Shown here one piece after another: positions 40,868-43,810 of a stretch of DNA of 45,347 nucleotides. Positions within the stretch are counted from its first letter, which is position 1. The number at the start of each line of letters is the position of its first letter. A program made the translations under genes and the position numbers. The notes under the pieces were generated by a model that saw only the letters and a program-made list of their open reading frames with translations, did no database searches and was not told where the DNA came from. The DNA is taken from the NCBI GenBank assembly GCA_018817585.1, contig JAHITE010000030.1, forward strand, positions 1 to 45,347, read 5' to 3'. The DNA is from Candidatus Omnitrophota bacterium (GTDB taxonomy: Bacteria; Omnitrophota; Gorgyraeia; B26-G9).

Positions 40868-43810
40868 ATGAAAGTTATTATATCTTATCCGCCGCTGAAT
40901 AAGGAAAAGGGAACGCCATTGCTTTCGCAGAATAGGCAGTTTCAATATTTTAAAGATCCTACTTATATTTATCCAGTGGTCCCGGCGCAAGCTGCTTCAT
41001 TGCTTAAACGGGAAGGGTTTGATGTTATTTGGAATGATTGTATTGCCATGGATTGGGAGTATCAGCAGTTTATCGATTTCATAAAGAATGAAAAGCCTGA
41101 TCTTATTGCAATGGAAACTAAAACTCCTGTAGTAAAAGAGCATTGGAAAATCATAAACGACATTAAAAGACTATCGACAATTGACTATCGACCATTGACT
41201 GTTTTATTTGGCGATCATGTTACGGCAATGCCTGAGGAATCAATGCTTAATTCTCAGGTTGATTTTGTGCTTACCGGTGGAGATTATGATTTTCTGCTGC
41301 TTAATCTTTGTAATGCTATCCGGGAAGCTCAGGATGCCGGAGCGCATTATACACTTAGCGCGCATTTAGAGCCAGGGATTTGGTATAGAGATCATGCGCA
41401 AATCAAAAGCACGGGAAAATTCGAGCTAAAACATGATCTAAATATGCTTCCGTTTATTGATCGGAATTTAACCCAATGGAAATCATACGCTTATAAAAAC
41501 GGAAATTACCGGAGAACCCCGGGAACTTATATTATGAGCGGTAGAGATTGTTGGTGGGGGAAGTGTACTTTTTGTCTAGTCCCTAATACTGGGATAATTA
41601 CGTCACAAGGCCCGATGGAAATTAAAAAAATTGTAGAAGAAGGGGAAAGTGAAAGCTTTTATGTGTTAACGCATAATGCTGAATTTAAACGAGTAACTAG
41701 GAAATTTAAAAATAATTATGTTGGAGAAATGTTGGATGTGGAAATTTATAATTTAAAGCAAAATTTGCAGTTAACTCCTAATCATAAGGTGTATGCTTTA
41801 AAACGTTCAAAGATGAAAAGATGTTCCAAAAGAAGCTGTTGGGATTATTTCTGTGTGCCTTCAAGGATATCTAAACGGCTTAAGTGTGGTGTTTGCAACA
41901 AGAAATATTATATAGAATACGAGCCGGAATTTTTAGAAGCAGCTTTATTACAAAAAGGAGATTTTATTTCTGTTCCAATAGTTCGGGAAATGAAAAAGGT
42001 TGAGAATATTAGTATTAAAGAAATACTAAAGAACAATCCTTGTTTTGTAGAAACTGATAAGAGAAAAACAGAAAAAATAATTAATGAAATTGTAAGGCAT
42101 TATGAATTGGGTTATTCTCAAAGGAATATCGCGAAATTACTTAAAATAGATCGCGAAACTGTAAAAAGATATTTAACATTATTCGAGAATGATTCTTTGG
42201 AAAGTAAAAAAAATCCTTTTTGGGAAAAAAATGGTAACATTAAATTTGAAGCAGGAAAAAAATGGATTCCAAAGGATATCCCTTTAAATAAGGATTTTAT
42301 GCGTTTAGTGGGATATTATCTCGCAGAGGGCCATGTATCTAAAATAAAAAACAGGCCTAATTCGTACGCTCTAGTTTTGACTTTTTCTGAGAAAGAAAAG
42401 GAATTTATCGATGATGTGGTAGAAATAGCAGAAAAATTGTTTAAAAAGGTTGATGTAAGAAAGCATAATAATAAAAAAAACAGAACTATTCAAATAACTA
42501 TAAGTAGTTCTGTATTGGCAGTGGTATTTAAAAGTCTTTTTGGTGAAGATTGTTATAGTAAGAAGATACCACATAATTTTCTGTTTTTGAATTTAAACGA
42601 ACAAAAAGAATTGATAAGGGGGCTTTTTAGAGGCGATGGACATCTAAGAATAAGGAAAAAAGGTAAAGGGGGTAGTGAATATATTTATAGCACAACATCT
42701 CCTGTATTAGCTCAACAGGTTTTAATGCTGCTATTTAGGCAGAATTTAATTCCTAGTTATAGGGTTGCTCCTCCGGGGAAAAAGGGAACGGTAGATCAGC
42801 ATATAATTTCACTTTGCCAATATGATATAAAAAATATTTTCCCTGAATTGGATTTGCCTGAACGTTCAATTATCTTCAGAAACGGTTTTATTTTAGGTGA
42901 TTACGCTATGATACCTATAAAAAGTATAAACAAGGTATTATATGATGGTTATGTATATAATATAGAGGTGGAAGCTGACCATAGTTACGCAGCAAATAAT
43001 ATATTGGTAAGCAATTGCAGTTGGCCGCAATTATATCCGGAATTTAGAAGCAGGAATCCGGAGAATGTGCTGGATGAGATTGAGTTGCTGGTGGATAAAT
43101 TTCAGGTTAAAGAAATAATGGATGATTCAGGAACTTTTCCAGTAGGTAAATGGCTGAAGGAATTTTGTCAGGGGATGATTGAACGGGGGCTTAATAAAAG
43201 AGTAACGCTTGATTGTAATATGCGTTTTGGAGCATTGAGTTTTGAGGAATATAAGTTAATGCAAAAAGCTGGATTCCGTTTCTTACTGTTTGGGATCGAG
43301 TCAGCGAATCAGACAACATTGGACAGGATAAAGAAAAATCTTCAAGTTGAGACCATTATTCCCAGCTGTAAAGATGCCAGACTAGCAGGTCTTTATCCTC
43401 ATATCACTATAATGTTCGGTTATCCCTGGGAGTCTTATGAAGATGCCCAGAATACCTTGAAATTAGGGAAATTTTTATTGAAAAAAGATTATGCTTATAC
43501 CATGCAGTCAACAGTAGTTGTCCCGTATCCTGGAACTCCATTATTTGAAGAATGTAAAGATAAGGACCTTTTATACAGCACGAATTGGGAAGATTATGAT
43601 ATGAAGAGTCCTTTAATGAAGACAGATTTTTCCAAGGAAAAACTGCTGCAGCTTGTGCAAAGCCTTTATTCAGTAAGCTATTCACCTGAATTCGTCGCAA
43701 GAAAAATCTTGAGTATCAGGGGAGTTGATGATGTGAAATATTTTGGCCGGGCTTTTCTGAAAGTTGCCGGACATATATTTGATTTTAAAAAAAATAAGAT
43801 CAAGAAGTAA
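40868..43810 (+). CDS. B12-binding-type radical SAM protein interrupted by an intein
   Basis: 980 aa precursor; removing residues 236-716 leaves a 499-aa host. Host residues 1-~200 look like a cobalamin-binding-type Rossmann domain (start VIISYPPLNKEKG, PVVPAQAASLLKREGFDV, LFGDHVTAMPE) without an obvious DXHXXG. The radical SAM motif is rebuilt at the splice point: Cys228, Cys233 and the Cys following the intein, with CTF before and SWPQLYPEF after. The C-terminal part (FGIESANQTTLDRIKK, FGYPWESYEDA, VVPYPGTPLFEE) is standard for the Elp3/MiaB-like barrel. Residues RLSTIDYRPL come from a heptamer tract. Function unknown. Confidence 0.9.
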   Translation: MKVIISYPPLNKEKGTPLLSQNRQFQYFKDPTYIYPVVPAQAASLLKREGFDVIWNDCIAMDWEYQQFIDFIKNEKPDLIAMETKTPVVKEHWKIINDIKRLSTIDYRPLTVLFGDHVTAMPEESMLNSQVDFVLTGGDYDFLLLNLCNAIREAQDAGAHYTLSAHLEPGIWYRDHAQIKSTGKFELKHDLNMLPFIDRNLTQWKSYAYKNGNYRRTPGTYIMSGRDCWWGKCTFCLVPNTGIITSQGPMEIKKIVEEGESESFYVLTHNAEFKRVTRKFKNNYVGEMLDVEIYNLKQNLQLTPNHKVYALKRSKMKRCSKRSCWDYFCVPSRISKRLKCGVCNKKYYIEYEPEFLEAALLQKGDFISVPIVREMKKVENISIKEILKNNPCFVETDKRKTEKIINEIVRHYELGYSQRNIAKLLKIDRETVKRYLTLFENDSLESKKNPFWEKNGNIKFEAGKKWIPKDIPLNKDFMRLVGYYLAEGHVSKIKNRPNSYALVLTFSEKEKEFIDDVVEIAEKLFKKVDVRKHNNKKNRTIQITISSSVLAVVFKSLFGEDCYSKKIPHNFLFLNLNEQKELIRGLFRGDGHLRIRKKGKGGSEYIYSTTSPVLAQQVLMLLFRQNLIPSYRVAPPGKKGTVDQHIISLCQYDIKNIFPELDLPERSIIFRNGFILGDYAMIPIKSINKVLYDGYVYNIEVEADHSYAANNILVSNCSWPQLYPEFRSRNPENVLDEIELLVDKFQVKEIMDDSGTFPVGKWLKEFCQGMIERGLNKRVTLDCNMRFGALSFEEYKLMQKAGFRFLLFGIESANQTTLDRIKKNLQVETIIPSCKDARLAGLYPHITIMFGYPWESYEDAQNTLKLGKFLLKKDYAYTMQSTVVVPYPGTPLFEECKDKDLLYSTNWEDYDMKSPLMKTDFSKEKLLQLVQSLYSVSYSPEFVARKILSIRGVDDVKYFGRAFLKVAGHIFDFKKNKIKK
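41169..41203 (+). repeat. Five degenerate 7-bp tandem units inside the radical SAM gene
   Basis: The units are GACTATC, GACAATT, GACTATC, GACCATT and GACTGTT. They encode the segment RLSTIDYRPLTVL just before the LFGDH strand of the cobalamin-type domain, a likely loop. Unit count and length equal those of the hisF tract at 10-44, and both fit a loose YRRCYAT-like pattern. Confidence 0.8.
41573..43015 (+). mobile_element. Intein with LAGLIDADG homing endonuclease and extra DNA-binding-type segments
   Basis: A 481-aa intein, precursor residues 236-716. Block A starts CLVPNTGIITSQGP; block B is LTPNHKV with Thr303 and His306; block F is EADHSYAANNILVSN and the intein ends Asn716 before Cys+1. 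Two LAGLIDADG-type motifs, LVGYYLAEGHV (480-490) and LIRGLFRGDGH (582-592), mark a double-motif homing endonuclease. A helix-turn-helix (about 405-440, SQRNIAKLLKIDRETVKRYL) and five cysteines (319, 324, 329, 340, 343) are additional. The penultimate residue is Ser715 instead of the common His. Confidence 0.92.

Follow-up and report, generated by a model that had tools for sequence, protein, structure and literature searches.

A B12-type radical SAM gene of a Candidatus Omnitrophota bacterium is interrupted by an intein directly before the codon for the third cysteine of its iron-sulfur cluster motif. The gene lies in the window, i.e., the whole analyzed stretch of 45,347 nucleotides (contig JAHITE010000030.1). 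Very likely, a mobile intein has settled in the cluster motif of the sole host copy, and splicing restores a 499-aa enzyme (235 + 264 aa, reading CWWGKCTFCSWPQ in the joined ORF translation) which is functional only after this step. The original prediction had placed a 481-aa intein before the third cluster cysteine, with residues 228, 233, 236 and 717 as the relevant cysteines and 499 aa in the joined exteins, and both the translation and the NCBIfam boundaries agree with this (Table 1). As read from the sequences, the insertion is exact, the splicing and endonuclease motifs are in place, homologues with an empty site exist and the distribution is patchy.

Table 1. Features of the interrupted radical SAM gene (window positions; residue numbers with a block or motif are those of the intein unless they refer to a model match).
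Feature	Position	Strand	Evidence or remark
Host gene, B12-type radical SAM precursor with intein, 980 aa	40868..43810	+	ORF translation, Pfam, NCBIfam
N-extein, 235 aa, C-terminal end ...RDCWWGKCTF	40868..41572	+	Translation
Cys228 codon	41549-41551	+	N-extein
Cys233 codon	41564-41566	+	N-extein; Cys233 is the intein -3 residue
Class-1 intein, 481 aa, Cys1 ... Ser480-Asn481	41573..43015	+	Pfam, NCBIfam, intein model, Foldseek
Block B, TPNH (TxxH), residues 68-71	41774..41785	+	T68 and H71 invariant
Zinc-ribbon-like four-Cys insert (C84, C94, C105, C108)	41822..41896	+	Alignment A3
Helix-turn-helix region, SQRNIAKLLKIDRETVKRYL	42059..42187	+	Weak HTH_7 and HTH_29 matches; model helices
LAGLIDADG homing endonuclease domain, GYYLAEG and GLFRGDG	42290..42862	+	PF14528 in two stretches; Foldseek
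Blocks F and G, YDGYVYNIEVEADHSYAANNILVSN	42941..43015	+	TIGR01443 at precursor residues 695-717; N481 invariant
C-extein, 264 aa, first residue Cys717	43016..43807	+	Translation; invariant column C717

The insert is a class-1 LAGLIDADG intein, as blocks A, B and F/G, the +1 Cys, a Hint fold and empty-site homologues are all present. Its Cys1 is residue 236 of the precursor, Asn481 is residue 716 and the extein +1 Cys is residue 717. The NCBIfam model intein_Nterm (TIGR01445; 29.9 bits, cut-off 24.5) begins exactly at 236, intein_Cterm (TIGR01443; 23.7 bits, cut-off 15.6) stops exactly at 717, and Pfam Intein_splicing covers residues 250-716 (E 3e-10). T68, H71 and N481 are invariant in alignments A1, A3 and A4, and Y472 is conserved in relatives. 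Two residues are atypical: a Ser replaces the usual penultimate His, and block F (VYN) carries Asn at a position more often occupied by Asp. Relatives within intact hosts share these two residues. The Phe at -1 can affect the rate of splicing. LAGLIDADG_3 (PF14528) matches in two stretches (E 1.4e-15) with acidic residues in both motifs, and by its sequence the endonuclease is probably intact.

The AlphaFold2 model of the intein, built from an alignment of the window and fetched loci, has a mean pLDDT of 88.1 and a pTM of 0.86. It was used separately because the intein part is poor in the model of the whole precursor. Foldseek against PDB gave endonuclease-bearing inteins as the best matches (2cw7 with E 2.4e-21, 7qsu, 7qss and 1vde), the top structural matches being PI-PkoII, TliVMA and PI-SceI, and the Hint fold was found; the endonuclease part matches I-DmoI, I-SceI and PI-PfuI. 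The helix-turn-helix region contains helices at intein residues 163-178, 183-190 and 194-205 in the model. The four-Cys insert, for which model confidence is low at residues 90-102, is common to the window intein and L083 only (alignment A3).

In the host, Radical_SAM (PF04055) scores 50.6 bits (cut-off 29.5, E 3.2e-13). The cluster motif after splicing is CWWGKCTFC, with the spacing Cx4Cx2C rather than the canonical Cx3Cx2C; this spacing is kept throughout the family, and C228, C233 and C717 are invariant columns in host alignment A2. The B12-binding domain PF02310 scores below its cut-off (26.6 vs 32.1 bits), and the same is true of the NCBIfam models of HpnJ/BchE type which match the host part. 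A true HpnJ is ruled out, with 125.5 bits against an equivalog cut-off of 577.6. In the AlphaFold2 precursor model, the exteins structurally match AprD4, MgmA, TsrM and OxsB, and these matches support a predicted cobalamin-type radical SAM fold. The gene adjoins glycosyltransferases, O-antigen ligase-like proteins and one methyltransferase. Directly 5' of it lies a small protein of the 23S rRNA-intervening-sequence family (PF05635; 40433-40792).

The original prediction would have failed if homologues carried the insert as an ordinary conserved domain. Instead, 73 of the 83 aligned host proteins have no insert and 10 carry an intein. The nearest inteinless homologue, the Omnitrophota protein L003, shows 93% identity across 483 aligned columns, with a path length of 0.077 to the window host in the host tree, and reads an uninterrupted CWWGKCTFCSWPQ. 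Its empty-site DNA matches the joined window flanks at 44 of 48 bases. The many hosts lacking the insert and the uninterrupted L003 together show that the insertion is not due to chance. The window genome holds only one ortholog of the host gene, the next paralog being 31% identical, which upholds the earlier statement that the mature motif depends on splicing; the assembly has 125 contigs and is 92% complete, which leaves room for a second copy outside it.

The five rows with full-length inteins require five changes on the host tree, a scatter that fits a mobile element. One nanoarchaeal host clade has inteins in six of eight hosts, a number that reflects enrichment of this clade by intein searching and is not a frequency. 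Five of the six are mini-inteins of 156-170 aa without endonuclease at the B12-type site (L033, L034, L292, L293 and L294). Between L033 and L034 the intein has 69% amino acid identity and a dN/dS of about 0.12, compared to 91-93% and 0.05-0.09 for the exteins. These two mini-inteins are thus maintained under purifying selection, yet are less constrained than the enzyme.

Taken together, a LAGLIDADG-bearing class-1 intein would have invaded, presumably by homing, the cluster-motif DNA of the only B12-type radical SAM copy of this genome. After translation, Cys1 would form a thioester with Phe(-1), and the thiol of Cys717 would then accept the N-extein. Asn481 would cyclise and the exteins would be ligated to the 499-aa enzyme with the complete CWWGKCTFCSWP motif, so that ligation would have to come before the normal [4Fe-4S] cluster and the SAM site could form. 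Cys717 would thereby serve both as the +1 nucleophile during splicing and as the third cluster ligand afterwards. Since there is a single ortholog and the third Cys is invariant in the family, we infer that the precursor is inactive and must splice if the enzyme is used. Cys(-3) may permit a disulfide brake of the MoaA type, which, until there is evidence to the contrary, is best regarded as incidental to the site.

The original prediction had proposed to search radical SAM proteins for this insertion site, and such searches found it repeatedly. Inteins precede the third Cys in 20 proteins from four radical SAM families and five phyla, including both bacteria and archaea (10 B12-type, 3 NrdG2, 5 AmmeMemoRadiSam and 2 Tes), a count which comes from profile-based searches and is not an unbiased census. 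All are intact except L113 (19/20), and the profile searches brought up no radical SAM intein in front of the first or the second Cys. The first profile was built solely from four B12-type inteins, untrained on the NrdG2 or AmmeMemoRadiSam families, and run on 384 genomes of the window's phylum. Its six best matches beyond the window are all in radical SAM proteins, directly before the third Cys: L083 in a B12-type host, L084 in NrdG2 and L085-L088 in the AmmeMemoRadiSam enzyme. With a wider profile we found L149 (phylum of Berkelbacteria) and L167 (phylum of Woesearchaeota) in B12-type hosts, L120 and L121 in NrdG2-like hosts (phylum of Methanoperedens), and the AmmeMemoRadiSam-like L113 in the genome of a Latescibacterota bin. 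The frame of the L113 intein is broken by one TGA, which may reflect a sequencing error, recoding or decay. L196 and L197 were located via the intein-containing Tes model, with the intein again before the third Cys. At E 1e-30, sampled genomes from the phylum of Desulfosarcina gave no intein match, and those from the phylum of Elusimicrobia gave two weak matches whose junctions were not read. Viral carriers found no support: 79 viral loci have related inteins, and none of the 70 listed junctions is in a radical SAM motif. The site probably recurs because an irreplaceable conserved Cys serves as +1 nucleophile within a conserved stretch of DNA.

The junctions are alike between families. NrdG2 inteins (L084, L120, L121) read GCNFRCPY|C...SN|CHNPE and AmmeMemoRadiSam inteins (L085-L088, L113) read GCDFHCGY|C...HN|CQNW, both before the third Cys as in the window. 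For the Tes inteins (NF045703; L196, L197), TNRCNLSCWY|C...SN|CFFYA was read directly, and they differ from the window intein in host family and in their long tree branch. The NrdG2 hosts are of the anaerobic ribonucleotide reductase activase family TIGR02495 (scored for L084, by motif for L120 and L121), and the AmmeMemoRadiSam hosts are TIGR04337 (scored for L085-L087, by motif for L088 and L113). In the trees, the NrdG2 inteins group weakly with the window intein family, and the endonuclease part of the AmmeMemoRadiSam inteins may be closer to dCMP-deaminase inteins.

Whether these inteins form one lineage or were captured repeatedly is a question for which the support hinges on the families included. 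A three-family tree places 12 full-length inteins in one group (support 95/87). When Tes inteins are added, the AmmeMemoRadiSam inteins are placed elsewhere and the single grouping is lost; the AU test does not reject a tree constrained to unite the four families (p-AU 0.285). When the splicing and endonuclease domains are treed separately, a single clade is neither recovered nor rejected (p-AU 0.678 and 0.225).

Redox control of splicing has a precedent in the MoaA intein of P. abyssi, where a disulfide between Cys(-3) and Cys1 halts splicing under oxidation (Callahan et al., 2011, as described in PMC10663303 and PMC3922620). Both hosts are oxygen-labile radical SAM proteins, and the window junction CTF|C likewise has a Cys(-3) and Cys1 capable of forming a disulfide. 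However, the window host is of the B12 type, and redox trapping was shown for MoaA and would apply to the window by analogy; the insertion of the MoaA intein before the third Cys is deduced from its Cys(-3) spacing. Given this precedent and Cys233 at -3, the earlier suggestion of redox control was reasonable, and for the window intein it is a plausible idea, but not a new one. As an actual switch, in which oxidation would join Cys233(-3) and Cys236(Cys1), block the first splicing step and let the enzyme mature only under reducing conditions, we regard it as doubtful. The spacing equals that of MoaA, the arrangement is found in 20 of 20 third-Cys inteins, and five nanoarchaeal orthologs retain mini-inteins which, without an endonuclease, are held without homing drive. 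However, any radical SAM host supplies a Cys(-3) through its CxxC spacing, so that this residue is no evidence of selection, and retention of mini-inteins is also expected if imprecise loss is lethal to the enzyme. Moreover, the L033/L034 intein is less conserved than its exteins, though under purifying selection, and many inteins of the same genomes precede other active-site Cys without such spacing. A broader form, in which the third Cys is a general intein site across the superfamily, occupied by a single wide-ranging lineage or by several convergent ones and retained as a common redox gate that the inevitable Cys(-3)-Cys1 pair would provide to these oxygen-labile enzymes, with the nanoarchaeal mini-inteins as domesticated gates, appears unlikely to us.

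Cys228, Cys233 and Cys1 might also bind an iron-sulfur cluster or another metal and delay splicing until its release. The precursor CWWGKCTFCLVP does hold a complete three-Cys motif (Cx4Cx2C), and reversible zinc inhibition of a DnaB intein, the topic of PMC7360933, counts in the same direction. We still find such a trap quite improbable, as Cys1 belongs to the active site of the intein and would be needed by two folds simultaneously, and confidence in the precursor model is low at the splice junctions (229-240 and 704-722). Highly improbable is a non-splicing remnant, with the enzyme inactivated by the insertion and the locus in decay. Despite the atypical penultimate Ser, all 980 codons are open, the splicing and endonuclease motifs are all present, and the residues invariant in the family are preserved in the exteins, which are 93% identical to the inteinless homologue, in contrast to L113, where a stop breaks the frame.

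With the window case, a known kind of element gains a new host. That few inteins are known in radical SAM cluster motifs, as stated originally, does not hold: at least four families share the position, and NCBIfam NF045703 and reviews on MoaA exist, while our literature search for radical SAM inteins beyond MoaA found no papers. The single-enzyme precedent of MoaA is widened to one position shared by four or more radical SAM families of bacteria and archaea. The coincidence of inteins and redox motifs hence becomes a comparative question, with the same junction in varied hosts and in full-length and mini-inteins. Two points deserve attention: inteins return to one and the same cluster-ligand position in several radical SAM families, and nanoarchaeal orthologs have lost the endonuclease. 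Annotators should be aware that the cluster motif of such enzymes is hidden, the ORF being long or split.

SufB and NifU/IscU-type inteins, found in the same taxa as the radical SAM inteins, also precede a functional Cys of iron-sulfur proteins, but unlike the window host, these hosts are assembly machinery without a CxxxCxxC motif. Inteins before the first conserved Cys of NifU/IscU-type scaffolds (GNPV|CGD) occur in Omnitrophota (L089, L091, L093-L097) and in other phyla (L125, L150, L170, L171, L174-L177, L179, L181). A second scaffold site at another conserved Cys (KTFG|CGAA) is occupied in L105 and L107, and L105 has both sites; Pfam confirmed the host family for L091 and L105. Cys(-3) and Cys1 are also found in L173 and L185, where the intein splits the redox-active CAT|C pair before its second Cys in a thioredoxin-reductase-like host. 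The inteins of L180, L183 and L190, at DWCPG|CG in a beta subunit of the pyruvate-ferredoxin-oxidoreductase type, have a Cys(-3) as well.
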